IMG/VR virus record: IMGVR_UViG_3300002053_000122
Coordinates: 1-25,531 of that record
Source: a virus
Direction: 5' to 3' (one strand)
Length of the DNA stretch: 25,531 nucleotides
Positions 1-18,412 of the stretch are shown here, one piece after another. The notes under the pieces were generated by a model. It worked only from the letters and a program-made list of their open reading frames with translations. It was not told the origin of the DNA and searched no databases. The stretch's first letter is position 1, and each line of letters begins with the position of its first letter. Position numbers and translations under genes: made by a program.

Positions 1-22
1 TACCTAGTATGTCTTCAAACAT
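1..22 (-). CDS. Partial gene start, MFEDILG leader protein (cut by left edge)
   Basis: Only seven codons fit in the window: ATG at 22 reads MFEDILG and then runs off the left edge. The start overlaps the last codons of the preceding 157-residue gene, the same arrangement as at other junctions here. The peptide closely matches the starts of three other genes in the window (at 1404, 16539 and 24330), and this match is the main reason to call it a gene. Function cannot be judged. Confidence 0.5.
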
Positions 23-488
23 TTGCTTTCCTTATTTTATTGAAGGATTTTCTATTTCTTTCTATCCATCCTGATACGTTTACATATCTGTCTATCCATT
101 TGATGTTCTTTTCCCATATCCAGGATCTTCTCAGTATATATTCTTTTGCATATTGATCTTCTGGATAGTGTTCTGCTCTCTTCAGCATGTAGTTTAGCTG
201 ATCTGAAAATACCATTATTATTTTGCCCTGAAGCTTTTTTGCAGTACCGTCTAGAGTCGTGGTTTGATTCAGTAGATTTTGTGGCATAGCTGAAGAGTGG
301 ATCACTTCTGCATCCCATACATACACATCTTTTTTCTTTGTATCTGCCAGGAACCTTATATCGTTTGGAAGCTCTTTGATTTCTGAGGAAGTAGGGTTCA
401 CGAATATAGGAACTTCTATTTTCTTTCCCAGAAAAGACCAGGGAACTATATCATAGTATTTTTCTTTTAGATACTGTAGAAATTTCAT
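15..488 (-). CDS. Unknown protein with capsid-targeting-like leader (MKFLQYLKE)
   Basis: 157 residues. The first nine residues, MKFLQYLKE, fit the leader shared by many genes in this window and end in L-K-E, the form cut after Glu by T4-type prohead proteases. The rest of the protein is not recognised. It is rich in Lys, Trp and Tyr, with no membrane segment and no obvious catalytic motif. Its start overlaps the stop of the upstream zinc protein (ATGA), so the two are probably translationally coupled. By inference from the leader it would be carried in the virion and processed to about 148 residues. Confidence 0.75.
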
Positions 489-649
489 TCATCTTCTCCG
501 AATGGGTATTCTTCACCACCATCTTTTCTCAGGCATTCGTAGGAACAGTAGCCTTCAGACAGTGGATGAGTGTCAGAGTCATATCCACAGTTGGTACAGT
601 AGTGGAATTTCTTGTTGCATACTTTACATTTAGTCCCTCTGAAATCCAT
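485..649 (-). CDS. Small multi-Cys zinc-finger-like protein
   Basis: 54 residues, starting at ATG 649 behind an AAGGAA ribosome site and ending with a TGA that overlaps the next start. Cysteines come in pairs: CKVC near residues 8-11, CTNC near 18-21, then C-x3-C (CSYEC) near 35-39, followed by an acidic tail. His16 and nearby residues could complete one or two zinc sites. This is the general look of treble-clef or HIT/MYND-type mini zinc fingers, but I cannot assign a family. It is the first of about eleven small Cys-rich proteins in the window. Confidence 0.7.
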
Positions 650-734
650 AGTCATTCCTTATATTTATATTTCAGTGAAAAAATAAACCGTAGTTGAAGC
701 CCTTTGTTTACTTTATATTATAGGTATATGTGGC

Positions 735-1316
735 TCATGATAGATCAGATAGTTCTTGCTCTATATCATACATTCTATCATATATGGAATTATCCCATTT
801 CTCCCAATTATTGGTTTTGATTGCTTGATCTTCTTTCTTCTTTAATGTCTCATATTCTTTTCTAAGCTTTTCTATTTTTCTTAATCTTGCTTGATCAACA
901 TAGAGCTTTGACTTAATAGCATTGACCAGGGCAGCACCTTCACCTGTGAGCATACCTAACTCTATTTCTGTTTTAGGGAATAAGCTTTGAAGCTTGAGAA
1001 CCAATTCCTTCCCTATTCCCTGTCTCCTGAAGTTTTTATTGACTTCAATAAATTTTATAGATACTTCTTTTCCATAAATGGTGTAATCTATATATCCTGC
1101 TTTTTTACTATCCACTATTGCAGACAGTCTCATGTCTTTTTGGCCAGAACGATATCCAGTTAATTCATCATAAAATTCTATCTTTGATTCTGTTATAACT
1201 AGTGACTCTGGAAGGATCAATGCAGAATAGCCTGGATTAACTCCTGGCATCCATCTACCAGTATTCTCTCTTGGTTTAGGTTTATGCTTCTTCTTCAGAT
1301 ACTTTTTGAATTTCAT
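735..1316 (-). CDS. GNAT-type N-acetyltransferase with variant capsid-targeting-like leader
   Basis: 193 residues. A GNAT acetyl-CoA-binding motif A is visible at about residues 88-104 (strand IKFIEV followed by RRQGIGKEL, the R/Q-x-x-G-x-G/A loop), so it probably transfers an acetyl group from acetyl-CoA. The C-terminal 50 residues are charged and look like a coiled coil. The first residues, MKFKKYLKK, match the shared leader, but Lys replaces the Glu at position 9. The nearest L-x-E is LPE at residues 35-37. Its start lies inside the end of the MFEDILG gene (35-nt overlap). The substrate is unknown; phage GNATs can modify host proteins or antibiotics. Confidence 0.75.
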   Translation of the reverse strand: MKFKKYLKKKHKPKPRENTGRWMPGVNPGYSALILPESLVITESKIEFYDELTGYRSGQKDMRLSAIVDSKKAGYIDYTIYGKEVSIKFIEVNKNFRRQGIGKELVLKLQSLFPKTEIELGMLTGEGAALVNAIKSKLYVDQARLRKIEKLRKEYETLKKKEDQAIKTNNWEKWDNSIYDRMYDIEQELSDLS

Positions 1317-1404
1317 CCTCTTCGTCTTTCCATATCTTTTCTATCTCTTTCTGATTCTTCTCAGCTAAAGATAGATCTCTTTTTCCTAATATATCCTCAA
1401 ACAT
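1282..1404 (-). CDS. Short MFEDILG-leader protein (40 aa)
   Basis: 40 residues, highly charged and Glu-rich after the start peptide MFEDILGKRD. ATG 1404 is preceded by GAGGAATTAAA, a good ribosome site with normal spacing. The gene overlaps the acetyltransferase start by 35 bases in another frame, a longer overlap than elsewhere in the window. The start peptide recurs on three other genes, which supports real translation. No domain is recognised. It could be a small adaptor or a leader-plus-linker remnant of a longer gene. Confidence 0.6.
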   Translation of the reverse strand: MFEDILGKRDLSLAEKNQKEIEKIWKDEEDEIQKVSEEEA

Positions 1405-1423
1405 TTTAATTCCTCACTTTGGT

Positions 1424-1666
1424 CTATTTCCTACCTCTAAGTTGTCTTAGCCTTTTATCCTCATCGGCAATTTCTTTTTTAAGCTTACCACTTTTGATTT
1501 CTTCCATGGCTTGTTTAGATGCTTTTGCTTTGTCCATGCCTTTGGCAACAAGCTCTTTCATCCTTTTCATATGGACGTTAAGCTTTGCTTCTGTATTTCT
1601 CTGCTCCTTTGCACCAGTGGCAGCACCTAGAGGATGAGCTTCTTTTAGATACTCTTTAAATTTCAT
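1424..1666 (-). CDS. Lys-rich helical protein with capsid-targeting-like leader (MKFKEYLKE/A)
   Basis: 80 residues. The start, MKFKEYLKE followed by Ala, is the copy in this window closest to the T4 leader MKTYQEFIAE. The mature part is almost all charged helix, rich in Lys, Glu and Ala, with a segment of the M-x-K-A-K-A-x-K-Q-A type often seen in phage proteins and a basic RLRQLRGRK end. Small, basic, helical mature proteins of this kind resemble T4 internal proteins, which sit next to DNA in the head. The function after delivery is unknown. Confidence 0.75.
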   Translation of the reverse strand: MKFKEYLKEAHPLGAATGAKEQRNTEAKLNVHMKRMKELVAKGMDKAKASKQAMEEIKSGKLKKEIADEDKRLRQLRGRK

Positions 1667-1669
1667 TTT

Positions 1670-2173
1670 TTAGCCTACCTTAATTATTTCATCAAAACCT
1701 TCAGCCTTAGAAGGTTCCTCATAGTCCTTCATCATCTTTTCCATAACGTCTGGTGGTATGTGTTTACCAGTCTTTTTCTCTCTTAGTTTTAATCTTTTAT
1801 TCAACTCACTTTTACTGAGTTGAAATACTAGAGCAGTCTTCTTGTAGTCTGGAGCAAGTTTTAAATATTGTTTTCTAATTGCCTTAGTTAAATTGGTATT
1901 GTCGAGAACTATATTTCTACCTGTTTTTAGTGCTCTGGTAAAATCTTGTTTACCCATTTCAATTATATTATCTCTACCAAGGGCATCAAACATTTGATTA
2001 TATGATGCACCTAGTTTTTTAGCAAGTCTATCTACTATAGAGTCATTAGATACTATAAGATAGTCATTATATTTCCTTTTGATATATGTGCTCTTGCCTG
2101 TTCCTGGCAATCCCACGGCAACTACAAGTTCTTTTTTCACCTTTTCTTCTCCTATATATCGTTTAAGTTTCAT
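1670..2173 (-). CDS. P-loop kinase of the T4 polynucleotide-kinase type, with capsid-targeting-like leader
   Basis: 167 residues. The Walker A motif GLPGTGKST lies at residues 21-29. It is followed by a VSND motif near 41-44 and VLDNTNL near 89-95, in the order seen in the 5'-kinase domain of T4 Pnk and related AAA_33 kinases. A late KTGKHIPPDVMEKM segment corresponds to the lid and conserved basic region. It is about half the length of T4 Pnk and lacks a phosphatase domain. Kinase activity on a nucleic-acid 5' end is therefore likely but not certain; a small-molecule kinase is possible. The start MKLKRYIGE fits the shared leader, so it may be injected. T4 Pnk repairs tRNA cut by host anticodon nucleases, and early delivery would suit that role. 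Confidence 0.8.
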   Translation of the reverse strand: MKLKRYIGEEKVKKELVVAVGLPGTGKSTYIKRKYNDYLIVSNDSIVDRLAKKLGASYNQMFDALGRDNIIEMGKQDFTRALKTGRNIVLDNTNLTKAIRKQYLKLAPDYKKTALVFQLSKSELNKRLKLREKKTGKHIPPDVMEKMMKDYEEPSKAEGFDEIIKVG

Positions 2174-2174
2174 T

Positions 2175-2654
2175 TTATAACCATCTGGATCTTCTTATGG
2201 TTGCTGATGGATAAAGCTTAGTCCATTCCTCAGTTCCTTCTGGATATTCTTTGAGCCAATATTTATATCTATCTTTATGTCGTTCTCCAATATTGAAAAT
2301 CTTACAACCAAGATAGATTCCAAACTCTCTTATAGATATTGAAAAGAAGAACATCGGCAATGGTATATAAGTTCTGAATGTAAACCAGTAATCATCAGTT
2401 GTCCAGGGATTTCCCCAAACAATACTAGGAAGTTGTTTCCATCCATTCCATTTCCATTTCCAGAGCTTTGGTACTGGACCCATCCACTCACCAAAATTTA
2501 TAGAGAACTTAAAACCAAACCACGTATCCGGTGTATATCCTCTTTCATCAGAATCAAACCATAAACCTCTTTCTCTTGACATAATTGAGAATTGAAAATC
2601 AAATAATATTCTTGCCTGTTCTTTTTTCCATAGTGATTTAAAAAATTTTTTCAT
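2175..2654 (-). CDS. Trp/Phe-rich protein of unknown function
   Basis: 159 residues with unusually many Trp, Phe and Tyr (runs such as LWKWKWNGW and WFTFRTYIPLPMFFF). The protein looks beta-rich rather than a membrane protein, although one hydrophobic stretch lies near residues 98-110. The start MKKFFKSLWKKEQ is basic and aromatic but does not fit the leader on both neighbours. It begins with an ATGA overlap with the metallopeptidase-like gene and ends one base before the kinase start, so it belongs to the same operon. Not recognised. Confidence 0.65.
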   Translation of the reverse strand: MKKFFKSLWKKEQARILFDFQFSIMSRERGLWFDSDERGYTPDTWFGFKFSINFGEWMGPVPKLWKWKWNGWKQLPSIVWGNPWTTDDYWFTFRTYIPLPMFFFSISIREFGIYLGCKIFNIGERHKDRYKYWLKEYPEGTEEWTKLYPSATIRRSRWL

Positions 2655-3982
2655 GTGTATTTCTCGATCTCAAATCCTTTCTTGCTTTTCTTCTTTATAT
2701 AAATAGATGGAATACCTCTCATGAATGGTAAATCTTCCACTTGTTTTATATCCCATTTGCTAGTATCTAAAAACTTACTAAGAATCCTTATATAGATTTT
2801 TGATCTTCTAATGTCAGCAGGGTAGAAAGCAAGTTCAGTTGGTTTCTTCCTCTTAATAAATTCACCTATAGTTTTTGCAGCACCTAGAAAAATTTCCATA
2901 GGATTTGCTTTACCTCTTTTCTTCATGCTAAAGTCTGCTGTATATGCATCTTGAGCATATCTTTTAAATTGAACTATTATAGATGTGCCTGTGTCTCCAA
3001 TGCCCACTGTTGCTGCATCTTGAGTACCCCACCAGTCAGGTGTAGTTTCTGGTATGGTTGTAAATAATTCGTTTAGCCTACTTTCGGAAATATTACTGTG
3101 ATGTTCAATATACTGAACTAAATACTTCATAAATTTTTTCCAAACGGTAGGATATTTCTTTCTCATTTCCCAATATGGTTTAAAATTTTCTGATATTATT
3201 GCTATTGTAGAATGAAATCCTTTGTTTTTTAATCGTTCTATAATGAATGTTCCAACATCACCTGTTTCAGCCAAATTTTTCAGGGGTTTGTCACCTTTCA
3301 CTGGACCCTGCTTCTTCTCTTTGGTTACTTGTTCTTTGAAGTCTGACCCCCATTTCCATATATCAATAGCAGCACCTTGAGCAAAAGCCATTATCTCTAA
3401 ACCATCGGCATGATATTTTTCATAGTTTGTAATAATAAGTTGATGTTTATCTGCAAGCCATTTAGAAAAACTACCTACTGCACTTTCAAACTGTTTTTCA
3501 AATTGATCTGGTGTTAATCCTCTACCATTATTCCACCATCTTGTAAGCTGACCAGCATGGACCATTTCATGGTATGCAGTAGCCTTAAATTCATTTAGCC
3601 AGTGGTTGAATACTGCTGCTCTTTTGGAATATATTGATACATGCCATTTTTCAAAAGTTACAAATTTATTATAATAGATTTTGATTTGTGGTTGTATATT
3701 ATAATTTTTTCTACCTTTTTCTTTAATATACTGAACAGTTGTTGTTGCATTAATACGGTTAATTTTATCATTGTGTTTTAAACTAATATCTGCCCATACA
3801 GAAAATCGTCTTATTAAATATTCTAAATTTTGATGAAGATCTTCTGGAAACCAATTGCTTATGTTTTCTTTCATCTTATCATAGACAGTCTCAATAGCTC
3901 TTTGCAAATCTTTCCAGACTATTGGCACAGGAGTCACTATTGCTTCCTCTATTGTTTTATCCAGAAATGTTTTTAATCTCAT
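2651..3982 (-). CDS. HExxH metallopeptidase-like protein with leader variant (MRLKTFLDKTIEE/A)
   Basis: 443 residues, the largest gene of the left island. HEMVH at residues 138-142, followed by AGQLTRWW, is a gluzincin-type zinc motif. A candidate third ligand is the Glu of GLEIMAFAQ about 50 residues later, as in clan MA peptidases. The C-terminal third (from about 300) is a separate region of unknown fold ending in a Lys-rich tail. The start resembles the shared leader, but position 9 is Lys; an I-E-E followed by Ala at 11-14 supplies a possible cleavage site. If packaged, it would be a protease delivered at infection, but a role inside the head or tail cannot be excluded. Confidence 0.7.
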   Translation of the reverse strand: MRLKTFLDKTIEEAIVTPVPIVWKDLQRAIETVYDKMKENISNWFPEDLHQNLEYLIRRFSVWADISLKHNDKINRINATTTVQYIKEKGRKNYNIQPQIKIYYNKFVTFEKWHVSIYSKRAAVFNHWLNEFKATAYHEMVHAGQLTRWWNNGRGLTPDQFEKQFESAVGSFSKWLADKHQLIITNYEKYHADGLEIMAFAQGAAIDIWKWGSDFKEQVTKEKKQGPVKGDKPLKNLAETGDVGTFIIERLKNKGFHSTIAIISENFKPYWEMRKKYPTVWKKFMKYLVQYIEHHSNISESRLNELFTTIPETTPDWWGTQDAATVGIGDTGTSIIVQFKRYAQDAYTADFSMKKRGKANPMEIFLGAAKTIGEFIKRKKPTELAFYPADIRRSKIYIRILSKFLDTSKWDIKQVEDLPFMRGIPSIYIKKKSKKGFEIEKYT

Positions 3983-4509
3983 TTATTTTTACCTTTGTAA
4001 ATATTTTTATCAAACCATAATCCCATAAATCCCATTATTGCAAACTCATTCTTTTTTAATATCTGTGCTGCTTTTCCTGCATCGGTTTTTAAGATTTGCA
4101 TGTATGTTTCGTTCTCAACAATTTTCTTAAGACATATTTCATAAGTTAAATCAAAATGTATTTTCTTTGGTTTGTAAAAATTCCAAGCATGTTCAATAGG
4201 AATACCCATGCTACTGAAATAACCAACAACAACATCTATTTCTCTGGCTTTAGTTGCAGCAACCATCCATGCATTGCTATAGCATTCTTTAACTCTTGGA
4301 GATACTATGCCAAGTCTTTCTGTTATGATTTTCTCAAGAGTTGGATCAGATTTATATGATTGAACTGTGACTGGTTTGCCTTGCTGCAACTGCCAATCCC
4401 AATAAGCTATTTGCATAGGATGGGGATCTTCTTGTCGAGAAAGCAAAGACAACATTCCTTTGATATATTGTTTTAAATTACTTTCAATTAGATATCGTCT
4501 AAATTTCAT
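3979..4509 (-). CDS. Cys/His/Asp hydrolase-like protein with capsid-targeting-like leader (MKFRRYLIE/S)
   Basis: 176 residues. Three motifs are in the order of papain- or transglutaminase-fold enzymes: ECYSNAW with Cys76, PIEHAWNF with His107, and HFDLTYE with Asp120. Many phage hypothetical proteins carry this C-x-N-A-[WF] ... [IV]-[ED]-H-A-W ... D pattern. A thiol peptidase, amidase or transglutaminase-like activity is inferred; the substrate is unknown. The start MKFRRYLIE ends in L-I-E before Ser. It overlaps both neighbours slightly, in the middle of the leader-gene run. Confidence 0.65.
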   Translation of the reverse strand: MKFRRYLIESNLKQYIKGMLSLLSRQEDPHPMQIAYWDWQLQQGKPVTVQSYKSDPTLEKIITERLGIVSPRVKECYSNAWMVAATKAREIDVVVGYFSSMGIPIEHAWNFYKPKKIHFDLTYEICLKKIVENETYMQILKTDAGKAAQILKKNEFAIMGFMGLWFDKNIYKGKNK

Positions 4510-4735
4510 CTCTTGGTTTTCTACATTCCTCTAAAATTGTTCTGTCTATCAAATTTATCATCTCACATAAACAGTTCTTGCAAAGGCACGTTATCAGTGA
4601 GTTGTTAGTAGGGTTTTTCAAGGAACACATAACGGTACTTTGCTTTAAACAACGTAGGCAGTGAAGGGGCAATTTAAAACCACGTCCTTCTCTGGGGTTT
4701 TTCCATGCTTCTATGGGCAAACAATAATCACTCAT
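4499..4735 (-). CDS. Cys-rich small protein, likely zinc-binding
   Basis: 78 residues with nine Cys. CLRC near residues 26-29 and CLCKNCLC near 50-57 suggest a two-knuckle zinc site. A later Cys sits in EECRKP. The N-terminal part has a GRGFKLP stretch. The gene overlaps the next gene by 11 bases and starts at a TAATG junction with the upstream one. There is no leader peptide of either shared type. It could bind nucleic acid or a partner protein; no family is recognised. Confidence 0.65.
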   Translation of the reverse strand: MSDYCLPIEAWKNPREGRGFKLPLHCLRCLKQSTVMCSLKNPTNNSLITCLCKNCLCEMINLIDRTILEECRKPRDEI

Positions 4736-5346
4736 TACATTCCTTTTGCTTTCATATATTCTATTGTTGAATCCGGTGGTATGGAGTCTAGTTTTTTTAC
4801 AGTTTTTTTCAATATATTCATTGATCTGATTAAATAGGGTTGCCTATAGGCACTTGTTTTTGGTTCGTATGCAACAGAATCATACATATGTTCTGCCAGA
4901 GAAATAATGAAATTATAGGTAGCAAAAGCTACATCATATATTATTTTTGGTAAATTCTTACTGAGTCTGTTTCTAGCACTCTTTGCAGCTTTTTTAAGTC
5001 TTGGTGAGTTTTTCATAATAGAGTCAACAGACTTTTCTCCATATTTATTTCCTTCTCTAAGTTTCTGTTTTAGTCTGTCTATATATAAGTAACGTCCATA
5101 CTCAACCATGGATTCTTCTATTATTCCCATCTCTTCTCTAATATGCCCCATCTCTACCCATAATGGTTTATCATCTCTAGTGGTATATCTTGATATTGAT
5201 CCTAGAATACAGTGTGCAGCTTCAGCCATTCTTTGAGCACCTATCTCATATTCCGTATTTGCTTCATAACCTCCACCATCTGGTATCTCTCCAAACATAG
5301 ATGTTTCCAATGGACATGCTTCATTTATAAAGCTTTTTAATCTCAT
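4735..5346 (-). CDS. Basic helical protein with capsid-targeting-like leader (MRLKSFINE/A)
   Basis: 203 residues. The start MRLKSFINE followed by Ala fits the shared leader and the I-x-E cleavage form. The remainder looks all-helical: a Gly/Glu-rich early part, then a strongly basic stretch (about residues 115-135, KNSPRLKKAAKSARNRLSK), then helices to the end. Basic helical content suits a DNA-associated internal head protein. No enzyme motif is seen. It starts with an ATGA overlap with the 102-residue gene upstream. Confidence 0.7.
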   Translation of the reverse strand: MRLKSFINEACPLETSMFGEIPDGGGYEANTEYEIGAQRMAEAAHCILGSISRYTTRDDKPLWVEMGHIREEMGIIEESMVEYGRYLYIDRLKQKLREGNKYGEKSVDSIMKNSPRLKKAAKSARNRLSKNLPKIIYDVAFATYNFIISLAEHMYDSVAYEPKTSAYRQPYLIRSMNILKKTVKKLDSIPPDSTIEYMKAKGM

Positions 5347-5651
5347 TTTAGATAGTCCTTATCTACAGGCTCACAACTGAACCTATATTTTCCTTTATTA
5401 ATATATGTTACTTTATATTCTCTTTCTCCAGGACCAACTGGTAACATAAAAGTTGTTCCTATTTTAGGCAACCAAGGAATTGGCTCTTTTTCTTCCTGGA
5501 GATTTTCTAACATTTCTTCAGCAGTTGCTAATTCAGCATTTTTAGATTCTAATAATTGAAGCTTTTGTGCAACCTCATCTGGAAGAGGATCTTTAACACC
5601 TTCTCCCTGATCATCTTCTACCATTGGTATTACTATTCCACTTGCATCCAT
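5343..5651 (-). CDS. Acidic coiled-coil protein with C-terminal beta domain, unknown
   Basis: 102 residues. An acidic N-terminal segment is followed by a Leu/Glu/Ala heptad-like stretch (about residues 26-55), a Pro-rich hinge, and a small beta-rich C-terminal part with several Gly and Lys. It starts at ATG 5651 after AGGAGGTAATTTGTT, a very strong ribosome site. The same ribosome-site segment precedes the gene at 6693. It has no leader of either shared type, so it is a different kind of protein in the same operon. Not recognised. Confidence 0.65.
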   Translation of the reverse strand: MDASGIVIPMVEDDQGEGVKDPLPDEVAQKLQLLESKNAELATAEEMLENLQEEKEPIPWLPKIGTTFMLPVGPGEREYKVTYINKGKYRFSCEPVDKDYLK

Positions 5652-5670
5652 AACAAATTACCTCCTTTTA
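5649..5670 (-). repeat. 22-bp stop/ribosome-site/start repeat, copy 1
   Basis: This segment runs from the TAA of one gene through AAAGGAGG and AATTTGTT to the ATG of the next. It is identical over 22 bases to 6691-6712. The two downstream genes are unrelated, so only the translation-start segment is shared. It may reflect duplication of a junction or strong selection for an efficient initiation site. Confidence 0.75.
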
Positions 5671-6264
5671 ACCTTTTACTGATAGTTTTGCTGGTCCCTC
5701 TACTTTAAACTTCTTTTTAATCTTTTCTAGTTCGGCTTTGTCTCTTAATATAGCTTTACCTCTTCTCAGGGCTTCATCGTAATCTTCGAATGTTTCTATA
5801 GTTGCATACTTACGTGGTTTGACCCTGATCTGTAATAAGTAACCACCACCTTCTGCTTGCATCTCAGTTGTTGCAGCACCATACTCTTTACACATTTCTC
5901 TAAAGCTTTTATCGTGTTGTGAATATCCAATATGAATGACTTCATGTTTAATTACTTTTAAAGCTTTTTCTTTGTCTTTCATATCAAGCATTCTATCAGA
6001 GATATAAACTTTAAGATATTTTGGCAGACTAATAAGTGTATGACTAATAGCTTTTCCACCTTTACCAGGATGTATCAGTGCCATTAATGCTGTTGCCTTA
6101 CCACCTGCTGCTTTCAGATCATCACGGTTAGTAGTAAAGGAGAGGATCTTATTAATGTGTTTATTAAAAGTTTCCTCTCCCCATATTTTTTTAGTCCATA
6201 GCTTGTATTGATCTTCAACCCATGACTGGCTTATGCTTTCTATCAAATAGTGTTTTAGTCTCAT
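5668..6264 (-). CDS. SprT/WLM-like zinc metallopeptidase with capsid-targeting-like leader (MRLKHYLIE/S)
   Basis: 198 residues. HEVIH at residues 107-111, followed by His117 and F121 (H-x5-H-D-K-S-F), matches the HExxH ... H-x3-F pattern of SprT-like and WLM-like peptidases, so zinc-dependent proteolysis is likely. The upstream half includes a Gly/Ala-rich stretch. The C-terminal half is mixed charged helix. The start MRLKHYLIE ends in L-I-E before Ser. SprT relatives cut DNA-bound or misfolded proteins in cells. The leader implies this one could act inside a newly infected host; that step is inference. Confidence 0.75.
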   Translation of the reverse strand: MRLKHYLIESISQSWVEDQYKLWTKKIWGEETFNKHINKILSFTTNRDDLKAAGGKATALMALIHPGKGGKAISHTLISLPKYLKVYISDRMLDMKDKEKALKVIKHEVIHIGYSQHDKSFREMCKEYGAATTEMQAEGGGYLLQIRVKPRKYATIETFEDYDEALRRGKAILRDKAELEKIKKKFKVEGPAKLSVKG

Positions 6265-6518
6265 CCTATATTCTCTGTCACTGGAACTGTGATTTTATCT
6301 TTCTTTTGTTTCTTCACATCATCCCAATAACGAGAAGTGTTACCGGACCAATCACACATATCTGTTTTATTATTGTAATGTAATTTGAATCTGGTTCCCT
6401 TTGGAAATTGTCTTTCCATTAAATTACCACACTCAGGACAAACCTGTGAATCATAGCAGCAGAAGAGAAGCTTTTCCTCTTCATACCCACATTTACATTT
6501 GTAATCAAAAATTGGCAT
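6261..6518 (-). CDS. FmdB-like zinc-ribbon protein
   Basis: 85 residues from ATG 6518. I prefer this start to the in-frame TTG at 6533 because AAGAGG lies just upstream of the ATG and the product then begins MPIFDYKCKCGY, the classic FmdB-family opening (MPIYEYxCxxCG). CKCG and CPECG form the zinc ribbon, with extra Cys between them. The family is described as putative regulators; its molecular role is not settled. The gene follows the 57-residue gene with a one-base gap and ends with an overlap into the SprT-like gene. Confidence 0.8.
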   Translation of the reverse strand: MPIFDYKCKCGYEEEKLLFCCYDSQVCPECGNLMERQFPKGTRFKLHYNNKTDMCDWSGNTSRYWDDVKKQKKDKITVPVTENIG

Positions 6519-6519
6519 T

Positions 6520-6693
6520 TTAAACCTCTTCAAGTAATGAATTAATTTTTTCTAACAACCGTCTAGATGTATCATCACATTTACTTTTTAACATTGGTGT
6601 CATATCTTCTGGTCTAGTTGCTAGACACTTCAAAGACTCTGCAAGATTATATATCATATGAGTCCTATCAACTGCATTTAATGTATCACACAT
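6520..6693 (-). CDS. Short unknown protein (57 aa)
   Basis: 57 residues starting at ATG 6693 behind AAAGGAGGTAATTTGTT. It is probably helical and mildly acidic, with an amphipathic C-terminal helix rich in Leu, Glu and Lys and two Cys that do not form a motif. The strong ribosome site, the one-base spacing to the next gene and continuity with the operon support it as real despite its size. No family is recognised. Confidence 0.65.
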   Translation of the reverse strand: MCDTLNAVDRTHMIYNLAESLKCLATRPEDMTPMLKSKCDDTSRRLLEKINSLLEEV

Positions 6694-6712
6694 AACAAAT
6701 TACCTCCTTTTA
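6691..6712 (-). repeat. 22-bp stop/ribosome-site/start repeat, copy 2
   Basis: Identical over 22 bases to 5649-5670. It contains the TAA of the membrane-anchored coiled-coil gene, the AGGAGG ribosome site and the ATG of the 57-residue gene. Confidence 0.75.
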
Positions 6713-6880
6713 TTTGTCAACTTTATCTTTCAACTCTTTAACTTCTGCTTTTGCCTTTTCAAGAAGTTCTTCTGCTTTTGCTCTTGCTTCATCAACTTGT
6801 TTTTGGATTTTATTTTTGTAGATGTATACTACAGCACCACCTGCAACAACACCAACTACAAAAGCTATTACTATTCCCAT
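6710..6880 (-). CDS. Single-pass membrane protein with coiled-coil tail (56 aa)
   Basis: 56 residues from ATG 6880 after AGGAGGTAAACT. Residues 2-20 form one hydrophobic helix rich in Gly, Ala and Val with a GxxxGG-like packing motif. From about residue 22 there is a regular Lys/Glu/Ala heptad pattern to the end. This is the layout of small phage membrane anchors, like YtxH-type proteins or Rz/spanin-like helpers, with a short N-terminal anchor and a cytoplasmic or periplasmic rod. There is no holin-type charge pattern or second membrane segment. Function is unknown. Confidence 0.75.
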   Translation of the reverse strand: MGIVIAFVVGVVAGGAVVYIYKNKIQKQVDEARAKAEELLEKAKAEVKELKDKVDK

Positions 6881-6890
6881 AGTTTACCTC

Positions 6891-7073
6891 CTATTTGCAG
6901 TGAGGACAAACAAGGTCTTCCTCACTATTTTTTGCCCATGTGTGACCACATTTGACACACATGATTTCAGTTTTTCTTCTTATACTTTCCGGTACTTTCT
7001 TTACGTGATATGGTTTTTTAAGCCACTTTCGTCTAAGTTCTTGTTGTACCTCTTTTTCTGTTTGACTTTCCAT
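6891..7073 (-). CDS. Zinc-ribbon protein (60 aa)
   Basis: 60 residues. The first half is a basic helix (about residues 5-35). The second half is a minimal zinc ribbon, CVKC near 39-42 and CPHC near 56-59, ending one residue later. Helix plus ribbon is common in phage transcription or nucleic-acid-binding accessory proteins, but nothing shows which. It starts at a TAATG junction with the methyltransferase-like gene upstream and ends 11 bases before the membrane-anchor gene. Confidence 0.75.
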   Translation of the reverse strand: MESQTEKEVQQELRRKWLKKPYHVKKVPESIRRKTEIMCVKCGHTWAKNSEEDLVCPHCK

Positions 7074-7741
7074 TATCCCTTATATATTTTAAATCCACTT
7101 GTTTTTCTTAGAAGAGAATATCCTTCATCCTCTAACATTGGTATCCTCTGAAAACCCTTGACAGTAGTGAATCCATGGATACAAAACTTCATGATATCAT
7201 CATCAGTTAATTTTTTTTCAAGATATCTTCTTGCTAGTTCTTCATCATCAGCAGCATAAACATTGATAAAGAAATTTCCAACTATCCTATCTTGTCTCTC
7301 TAGTGCTTTCTTTGCTGATTGAAAGACATCCAGGTTACGTGAAATATGGTAATGCTGTTTGCAGTATACTCCCATCCATCGGAGAATCTGTTTCTCTTTT
7401 CTTTCTGGAACTACGTTTATAACGAAACAAGTAAATCCGGTATCAAATCTATCAGTTGTTGGAGGAACCTTTTTAGATAGACCATCATAGCCACTTGCCT
7501 TCTTACCATGAAACGGATCATATGCATAGACTGTGCATCCTTGCTCTCTAAGCCACTCAGAGTTTCTAGCATACTCCCCTGCTCCCCAATCAAGAACTCT
7601 ATCTCCAGGTCTGATCAGTCCTTGTGAGAATAACCATTTCACACCAGGAGCAACATTTCCCTTGATTGATGTTCCACCTCTTTCTGGTGGTGCTCCTTGA
7701 AAATATTTTGCAGCTTCTTCTAAATAGTCTTTTAACTTCAT
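7073..7741 (-). CDS. SAM-methyltransferase-like protein with capsid-targeting-like leader (MKLKDYLEE/A)
   Basis: 222 residues. VLDWGAGEY at residues 49-57 is motif I (SAM-binding Gly-rich loop) of class I methyltransferases. VYAYDPF about 20 residues later fits motif II (acidic end of strand beta2). A hydrophobic FDTGFTCFVINVV strand fits motif III/IV. I see no DNA-methylase NPPY or DPPY motif, so the substrate is open (protein, RNA or small molecule). The leader MKLKDYLEE precedes Ala, as in the best T4 matches. Its ATG overlaps the end of the frameshifted leader gene upstream (ATGA). Confidence 0.7.
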   Translation of the reverse strand: MKLKDYLEEAAKYFQGAPPERGGTSIKGNVAPGVKWLFSQGLIRPGDRVLDWGAGEYARNSEWLREQGCTVYAYDPFHGKKASGYDGLSKKVPPTTDRFDTGFTCFVINVVPERKEKQILRWMGVYCKQHYHISRNLDVFQSAKKALERQDRIVGNFFINVYAADDEELARRYLEKKLTDDDIMKFCIHGFTTVKGFQRIPMLEDEGYSLLRKTSGFKIYKG

Positions 7742-7955
7742 TTTATCTTGCTCTTCAAAAATTTTAGTACATCATCAGCTTTCATTGGATGATGTTCATG
7801 TCTAACAATAGTTTCAATTCGTTTCCAAAAACTTCCTGGTTTATATTTCTTGAGAAACTGCAAGTCCTCAATGTTATTTGGGTGTTTGTAATTACCACCT
7901 ACTATTTCTTACTCCATGATGCCATATCTTCTTTTATAAATTGTTCAAATTTCAT
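7738..7955 (-). pseudogene. Frameshifted leader gene (MKFEQFIKE/D...), one base short
   Basis: ATG 7955 reads MKFEQFIKEDMASWSKK and then meets TAG at 7902-7904. In the -1 frame, directly after the AAGAAA at the stop, an open frame continues with a plausible hydrophilic sequence (...GGNYKHPNNIEDLQF...; ...HHPMKADDVLKFLKSKIK) and stops at TGA 7738, exactly overlapping the next start as ATGA. The length, 218 bases, is one short of 73 codons. Adding one A to the AAA run would give one 72-residue protein. It is either a true mutation, an error in the sequence, or less likely a recoding site: the heptamer there is not a good slippery sequence. The first nine residues fit the shared leader. Confidence 0.7.
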
Positions 7956-10433: not shown

Positions 10434-10599
10434 ATTCCCAACAATCGAACTCTATAGGTGTATATATGAGTGTCTTTTTAATTGGAACTGAATTAAAATA
10501 GTTTTTATCACAATCAACCATTTTACCATCAGAATTATAAAAGACACAATTTGTGCATAGCAAAATTTTACTTTTTAATCCTTCTATGGTGTGTTGCAT
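10414..10599 (-). CDS. Small Cys protein of C-x2-C-x-F-Y type
   Basis: 61 residues from ATG 10599; an in-frame TTG at 10608 would add three. The pattern CTNCVFYN ... VDCDKNYF ... FDCWEYEEKDN, four Cys with aromatic residues after each pair, recurs in the protein at 24348-24626. It suggests a shared small metal-binding fold rather than a plain zinc ribbon. It overlaps both neighbours. Whether the metal is zinc or an iron-sulfur cluster cannot be told. Confidence 0.65.
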   Translation of the reverse strand: MQHTIEGLKSKILLCTNCVFYNSDGKMVDCDKNYFNSVPIKKTLIYTPIEFDCWEYEEKDN

Positions 10600-10897
10600 A
10601 TTTTTCAACTTCTTTTCTAAGATCTGATGGAAATAGATTTAGTAGTTTATCAGGATCATCTGTCATGCCTGTGCTCTGTGCAATTATCCAAAATAATTCC
10701 CATGGATCAGCATCAGGATAGTGCTCTTTAAACCCTTTCCAATATTTTGGTAGAGCTTTCTTAATTGTTGAAGAGATTGCTGCTCTAGAGACCCCTAACT
10801 TTTTCCCTATATCTGAACCTGACATAGGTTCTTCGAATGGTCCTGTAATAATTCTTTCCAAGATCTGCTTCTCCAACAGATATTTCTCAAATTTCAT
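10568..10897 (-). CDS. HTH DNA-binding protein with capsid-targeting-like leader (MKFEKYLLE/K)
   Basis: 109 residues. A helix-turn-helix is visible at about 26-48 (SGSDIGKKLGVSRAAISSTIKKAL), the MarR/BirA-like spacing in which GVSRAAIS forms the turn and recognition helix. The C-terminal half is helical and aromatic. The start MKFEKYLLE fits the shared leader but is not followed by a small residue. In this leader, YLLEKQILERII might simply be helix 1 of the domain, so the packaging reading is weaker here. If packaged, it would be a transcription factor delivered with the DNA. It lies just downstream of nrdJ with a clear GGAGGGAAAT-type ribosome site. Confidence 0.7.
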   Translation of the reverse strand: MKFEKYLLEKQILERIITGPFEEPMSGSDIGKKLGVSRAAISSTIKKALPKYWKGFKEHYPDADPWELFWIIAQSTGMTDDPDKLLNLFPSDLRKEVEKYATHHRRIKK

Positions 10898-17978: not shown

Positions 17979-18146
17979 TTAATCTTCATCTTCCTCTTCT
18001 CTTTCTTCCCAATCATGACCACACATAGGGCAAAAGAAAGACACTCCAGAATAGCCTGGAGAAGCAACGTGAATTACCTTTTTACAATTAGGACAAGCAA
18101 CTGCAAATCTTTGGTATGGATCACTTGGGTTATATGGAAGACTCAT
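17979..18146 (-). CDS. Zinc-ribbon protein with acidic tail (55 aa)
   Basis: 55 residues from ATG 18146, with ATGA overlap with the leader gene upstream. CPNC at 18-21 and CPMC near 39-42 form a complete ribbon, followed by GHDW and a run of Glu and Asp. The short N-terminal part contains YNPSDPYQRF. It is close in size and design to the other small ribbons here and is probably a binding accessory. Confidence 0.75.
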   Translation of the reverse strand: MSLPYNPSDPYQRFAVACPNCKKVIHVASPGYSGVSFFCPMCGHDWEEREEEDED

Positions 18147-18412
18147 TTATGTTTTCCTCTCCACATTGTAGTTCCTTTTGCTTCATCTCTTACAGATGCA
18201 CAAAAAGCTTCTGGATCACTTAACTTACCTTTAATCTTTTTAACACAAGCATCGAACCATCCCTTATCATCAGGAGTTTTACCAGTTTCTTTTGTAAGGG
18301 ATTTTGCAAATTTCTGTACAGAACCTCTATCCCATCCTTTGGGGTATCCTTCCCATCCTATTTCCTTTCCCTTAAATGTAACTTTTTCTTCTAAATATTT
18401 TTTAAGCTTCAT
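18143..18412 (-). CDS. Small protein with capsid-targeting-like leader (MKLKKYLEE/K)
   Basis: 89 residues. The start MKLKKYLEE fits the shared leader. The C-terminal half, FDACVKKIKGKLSDPEAFCASVRDEAKGTTMWRGK, is a small module with two Cys that I know as a recurring element (C-V-K-K-x-x-G-K-x-x-D-P-x-A-F-C-A) in many phage proteins. The middle has GKEIGWEGYPKGWDRG. It lies directly downstream of a transcription terminator, far from the left island, and is the last clear leader copy. Function is unknown. Confidence 0.75.
   Translation of the reverse strand: MKLKKYLEEKVTFKGKEIGWEGYPKGWDRGSVQKFAKSLTKETGKTPDDKGWFDACVKKIKGKLSDPEAFCASVRDEAKGTTMWRGKHK

Follow-up and report, generated by a model that had tools for sequence, protein, structure and literature searches.

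A nine-residue leader on unrelated proteins of an uncultivated T4-like phage clade resembles the capsid-targeting sequence of T4 internal proteins

The virus record IMGVR_UViG_3300002053_000122, a fragment of 25,531 bases that we analyzed over its whole length (the window), raises the question of why a series of otherwise unrelated proteins should begin with nearly the same nine residues. An original prediction, made from this DNA alone, had read the shared start as a capsid-targeting peptide and its bearers as enzymes that are packaged in the phage head and injected at infection. By listing the open reading frames (ORFs) of the window and scanning them for the motif, we identified 10 ORFs that matched M-[KR]-[FL]-x-x-[YF]-[LI]-x-E exactly, all starting with ATG and all on the minus strand, and two further ORFs on that strand with near-variants of it (Table 1). 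Every leader that the prediction had named was present at its place, and the ORF listing also bore out that the replication proteins of the window (gp32, RNase H, NrdJ, thymidylate synthase and Hsp20) lack it. One leader, MKFEQFIKE, was present on an ORF of just 17 codons; since its reading frame is interrupted when compared with an intact homologue in a related record (G004, 950-1234), the window copy is either a damaged gene or a product of faulty assembly. We judge the shared residues to be, with high probability, a capsid-targeting sequence like that of the T4 internal proteins, which is the best explanation because of the anatomy of the leader, its position-by-position match to T4 mutagenesis and its head-gene context.

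We collected relatives of the window by means of its T4-type gp32 and RNase H and the capsid protein of one relative, which gave 26 contigs, the window included, from the same uncultivated clade of T4-like viruses of bacteria; a simple gene caller found about 3,600 genes on them. The full motif occurred in 102 of 5,632 distinct early-ATG contexts and in none of 8,276 internal-ATG contexts, and a chance origin of the leader is excluded. The register was strict, with 114 start matches when Lys/Arg and Tyr were spaced by 3 and 1-5 matches at other spacings. When single positions were freed, position 9 was still Glu in 102 of 133 matches, position 6 Tyr or Phe in 102 of 109 and position 2 Lys or Arg in 102 of 107. 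A looser pattern, from which position 3 was left out, retrieved 123 non-redundant genes, 110 of which nevertheless had Leu or Phe at that position, and conservation among the 123 dropped sharply past Glu9. Clustering the parts after residue 9 by BLAST gave 78 families. Single records had up to 17 tagged genes, and many more homologues carried small variants of the leader (MSRLEDYITE, MRLNGYLINE, MKFGTFILNE). In a panel of T4-like phages outside the clade (HTVC008M, C48C1, phiN3, P-HM1, KVP40, S-PM2, Cr30 and W-14), counts of the pattern were near control, so T4-like phages as a whole do not share the expansion. A search of the literature found no earlier description of the leader in this clade. 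When GTDB genomes were scanned for a copy linked to a host, one close relative, with 48% RNase H identity, turned up in a Thermoplasmata metagenome-assembled genome that is possibly mis-binned.

The shared start might be a feature of the DNA, such as a cassette for translation initiation or recombination, in which case the peptide itself would have no function. Codon bias at some leader positions (ATA for Ile at 7, AAA or AGA at 2) favors this, but nucleotide identity across the leader genes was high solely at amino-acid-determining sites, whereas the 45 bases upstream (0.30-0.32) and codons 10 onward (~0.3) were at background level. In addition, the leader Leu, Phe, Tyr and Glu are each written with several synonymous codons. 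We consider a DNA-level origin scarcely credible. The prediction had suggested that codon differences would tell selection on the peptide from selection on the DNA, and our codon and flank analysis indicated that selection acts mainly at the protein level.

The closest known peptide is the capsid-targeting sequence MKTYQEFIAE of T4 IPI-III (Mullaney and Black). The first ten residues of IPIII are enough for packaging, and mutagenesis showed that residues 4 and 7 matter for targeting and residues 8 and 10 for processing, while Asp at position 10 blocks processing and keeps targeting (PMC9026906). Positions 3, 6, 7 and 9 of the clade leader are spaced exactly as these four determinants (i, i+3, i+4, i+6) and likewise provide a hydrophobic or aromatic residue, an aromatic residue, Ile or Leu, and Glu. 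As a positive control, a DNA pattern of the same arrangement retrieved ipII and ipIII from T4. Both systems place a peptide of 9-10 residues at the N-terminus of unrelated proteins, and this clade also encodes a gp21-type protease. The clade leader differs in being one residue shorter with Leu or Phe at position 3, and in its use on up to 17 genes per record, many of them for enzymes, compared to three small basic inhibitors in T4. Giant phages offer a further parallel in the ejection proteins of SPN3US and phiKZ. The sets of proteins inside the SPN3US head are large, and some of these proteins have a propeptide that is cleaved after x-x-E, although the propeptides are mostly longer than 100 residues. 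Scanning T4 itself, we noted that gp61.1 (L265: AF158101 18966-19130, minus strand), a hypothetical protein of 54 residues, starts with a good capsid-targeting-like leader, MKTFKEFIKE, and from its sequence could be a further T4 internal protein.

The prediction had also called for a gp21-type prohead protease elsewhere in the genome. Using PHROG models and a query from one relative (G009), we found such a protease in nine related records, where it accompanies portal, scaffold and capsid genes of T4 type; the window's own fragment holds no head genes. The G009 module matched PHROG portal, head maturation protease, scaffold and major head protein, and the gene order was as in T4: gp20, (gp67, gp68), gp21, gp22, gp23. 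The Pfam models Gp23 (PF07068) and Peptidase_S77 (PF03420) had no match in the first relatives collected, but the controls were unmatched too, so this showed no absence. In a tree of RNase H, the window fell inside a set in which all records except two fragments (G008 and G013) bear the leader, and four records with both the leader and a T4 head module (G009, G021, G022 and G024) branched outside that set. Because the window is nested among leader records, with head-module records branching outside, its phage very likely inherited the same T4 head type, as judged from this tree.

Several tagged genes lie inside or beside the head operon. In G009 a tagged acetyltransferase is located between portal and protease, in G028 a tagged protein of 831 residues adjoins the portal, in G022 a tagged gene directly follows the capsid gene, and G025 has tagged genes in such positions too. 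Proteins of 775-831 residues with the leader or a close variant were found between portal and protease. The clade capsid protein itself has similar sites: 41 of 60 distinct N-termini contained [YFWHQ][LIMV]xE in the N-terminal arm, most commonly as YLTE, and 17 more had a later [LIMV]xE site. T4 gp23 has FLTE, its known cut site, at residues 62-65. The gp23 propeptide in T4 comprises 65 residues (PMC5694885). From T4 FLTE65 we infer that the YLTE-type site of the clade capsid is used for cleavage. Two other features of these head regions were noted. Small late-operon proteins in G025 (99758-101580), G026 (53233-53930) and G028 (42183-42533) begin with a second leader, M..EKIDxYLxE, and may be core proteins comparable to T4 gp67 and gp68. 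The gp21-type protease of G009 (L067 7292-8965) contains an in-frame, intein-like insert of ~350 residues beside its conserved His-Pro motif (HPE|C...HN), and the protease match in G021 (104577-106289) is similarly split.

A peptide tag could also direct its bearers to another site, such as the inner membrane, the phage replication compartment or a host complex. The amphipathic look of the leader, its presence on many early-type enzymes and a window with replication genes and no head genes would fit such a role. Against it, a Glu that hardly varies and conservation that stops abruptly behind it suit a cut site better than a membrane anchor, the spacing is that of the T4 determinants, tagged genes are located in head operons, and the capsid protein of the clade contains similar sites. 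We therefore judge targeting to another site to be very unlikely.

The leader is a removable addition outside the fold. Members of the 'FISPKG' family start at the domain in some phages (MEAAYFISPKG) and with the leader first in others (MKYHTYLNEISNTVAYWISPTG). Several untagged homologues of the helix-turn-helix (HTH) protein of the window begin ~20 residues later, near the HTH, and untagged phage homologues of its kinase begin at the P-loop strand (MNQPQLIVMVGLPGSGK). A CCA-type nucleotidyltransferase carries the leader in G025 and has none in G021 and G027. In the structural model of the commonest cargo family, leader residues had low predicted local distance difference test (pLDDT) scores of about 48-64, whereas the domain was well predicted. 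The possibility raised earlier, that the leaders are the natural first helices of each family, does not survive these comparisons.

The tagged families included P-loop and zeta-toxin-like kinases, the CCA-type nucleotidyltransferase, HAD phosphatase, NT5C nucleotidase, a cyclic-phosphate receiver domain, nitrilase, GNATs, NUDIX, RimK ATP-grasp with a zinc-protease domain, C39 peptidase, amidoligase and methyltransferase. One tagged protein of 596 residues (L240 3118-4908) combined a cytidylyltransferase-like domain with DUF6267 (E 2.5e-104). This variety bears on whether the tagged proteins, if loaded into the prohead, are components of its core or scaffold or condense DNA, and are not injected. 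T4 IPIII does affect head assembly (PMC9026906), some products are small and lysine-rich (such as the 80-residue protein in Table 1), and the 775-831-residue leader proteins lie between portal and protease. However, many of the enzyme domains (kinase, GNAT, NUDIX, CCA-type nucleotidyltransferase, nitrilase, ATP-grasp and C39 peptidase) would be unexpected in a structural component, and T4 IPI-III and Alt are injected (PMC12373910; PMC9026906). A structural role is thus unlikely, and on comparison with T4 the tagged proteins are likely delivered as injected effectors.

The commonest cargo family had 26 members, 16 with the leader, and a '[LF][YW]RG' motif (YRG/WRG) with an invariant Arg and Glu. 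It had no match in Pfam. Its structural model (pLDDT 85) was closest to 2aua, a structure whose function is not known (Z 6.8). Foldseek against the PDB gave nothing significant, the hint of a fold coming solely from a second aligner. From motif and model the family looks like ADP-ribosyltransferases, which recalls T4 Alt, a packaged and injected ADP-ribosyltransferase (PMC9026906). This likeness is at the level of class, no sequence relation to Alt having been found, although no test aimed at one was made, and the clade family differs in having several paralogues per genome and weak fold support. Since T4 Alt is packaged and injected and Ip1-3 inhibit restriction enzymes (PMC12373910), a role in anti-defence or host takeover is a natural guess for the tagged proteins. 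Homologues of this ADP-ribosyltransferase-like family also form tandem arrays in the cultured jumbo phages Agrobacterium phage Atu_ph07 (L260, 39484-50592), where nearly all members start M[KR]WxQLxE, and Salicola phage SCTP-2 (L261, 208780-214398), with MK[IV]N-type leaders ending in Glu. These arrays resemble the clade in their tandem paralogues and a leader shared within each array; they differ in the leader sequences, which are their own. The Atu_ph07 array corresponds to gp53-gp63, the numbering having been verified against gp70 (helicase-primase). According to the report on this phage, coding sequences 31-76 are one of three clusters of virion proteins identified by mass spectrometry, with 29 proteins detected out of 131 virion proteins (PMC6102473). 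Atu_ph07 agrees, indirectly, with packaging in the head.

Several points weigh against the capsid-targeting reading. The 29 Atu_ph07 proteins are a count for the whole cluster of coding sequences 31-76. The window and its nearest relatives (contigs up to 40 kb) are without head genes, so that a protease is assumed for them, and the majority of tagged genes are found away from the head operon, which is also true of T4 ipII and ipIII. The T4 FLTE and clade YLTE sites fall in different alignment columns because the length of the N-terminal arm varies. ADP-ribosyl-transfer folds made up most other structural matches of the commonest family (Arr with Z 4.9, PARP-1, OspC3 and KptA), but these are weak, with modest Z. 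To these is added the codon bias described above. The T4 late-promoter-like word TATAAATA was found at -30 to -50 of tagged genes at 15/136 vs 62/2665, but a control word of the same composition was likewise enriched (8/136 vs 35/2665) and no copy stood at this distance before the tagged genes of the window; we therefore kept this signal out of the main evidence.

On balance, the capsid-targeting part of the original prediction is well supported, and we infer the packaging, cleavage, injection and anti-defence role of the tagged proteins. In the proposed course, late in infection they would attach to the core of the prohead by the hydrophobic/aromatic face that positions 3 and 6 form, and cleavage by the gp21-type protease after Glu9, at [YF]-[LI]-x-E, would release the mature enzyme within the head. 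The near-variant acetyltransferase (735-1316), which has no Glu at 9, would be targeted and left uncut. Ejected together with the DNA, the enzymes would act on the host at once, by ADP-ribosylation, repair of nucleic acids and tRNA, and modification of nucleotides and proteins, probably mostly against host defences. Because the tag matches the T4 head-loading signal position for position, the clade probably delivers a large and varied enzyme kit with its DNA. Its system is a greatly expanded form of the T4 internal-protein system, itself already known: 78 families were found in this clade alone, compared to three internal proteins in T4 and at least 10 across related phages (PMC12373910). It is more likely than not that T4 capsid targeting has here become a general, secretion-like system, in which a short tag on almost any protein lets each phage send ~10-20 or more different enzymes (paralogous ADP-ribosyltransferases, enzymes for the repair of tRNA and nucleic acids, nucleotide hydrolases, acetyl- and methyltransferases, peptidases) into the host before phage gene expression. 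If so, a nine-residue tag would reveal the injected protein set of a phage from its genome, convert many phage genes now listed as 'unknown' into testable candidates for first-strike effectors and likely anti-defence proteins, and provide a natural library of enzymes pre-adapted to packaging in T4-type heads.

Table 1. Leader-bearing genes of the window, with leader positions in brackets
Product	Position	Strand	Leader	Remarks
157-residue protein	15-488	-	MKFLQYLKE (462-488)	Family with several leader-bearing paralogues in G021; predicted structure of low confidence (pLDDT 66)
GNAT acetyltransferase	735-1316	-	MKFKKYLKK, near-variant (no Glu at 9)	PF00583, E=4e-6
80-residue lysine-rich protein	1424-1666	-	MKFKEYLKE (1640-1666)	No family match
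P-loop kinase (AAA_33, polynucleotide-kinase-like)	1670-2173	-	MKLKRYIGE (2147-2173)	PF13671, E=2e-22; PHROG polynucleotide kinase
443-residue protein	2651-3982	-	MRLKTFLDKTIEE, variant	HExxH motif, metallopeptidase-like by eye; no Pfam match
176-residue protein, fold not assigned	3979-4509	-	MKFRRYLIE (4483-4509)	
203-residue protein, family not assigned	4735-5346	-	MRLKSFINE (5320-5346)	
SprT/WLM-like metallopeptidase	5668-6264	-	MRLKHYLIE (6238-6264)	Weak: PF10263, E=6e-5, under curated cut-off
Methyltransferase-like protein	7073-7741	-	MKLKDYLEE (7715-7741)	PF13489, E=1e-3; phrog_14016, E=4e-31
Broken leader gene	7741-7955 (17-codon ORF 7902-7955)	-	MKFEQFIKE (7929-7955)	Remainder in another frame downstream
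Small HTH protein (sigma-70 region-4-like)	10568-10897	-	MKFEKYLLE (10871-10897)	PF04545, E=2e-5
89-residue protein	18143-18412	-	MKLKKYLEE (18386-18412)	Close homologue with the same leader in L002-L004

Apart from the leader genes, G009 and G010 contain over a dozen scattered copies of a gene for a protein of ~290 residues (MNIKYKLEEVRSYIES...), with cysteine-rich repeats and an endonuclease-like tail by eye, which are perhaps homing genes.

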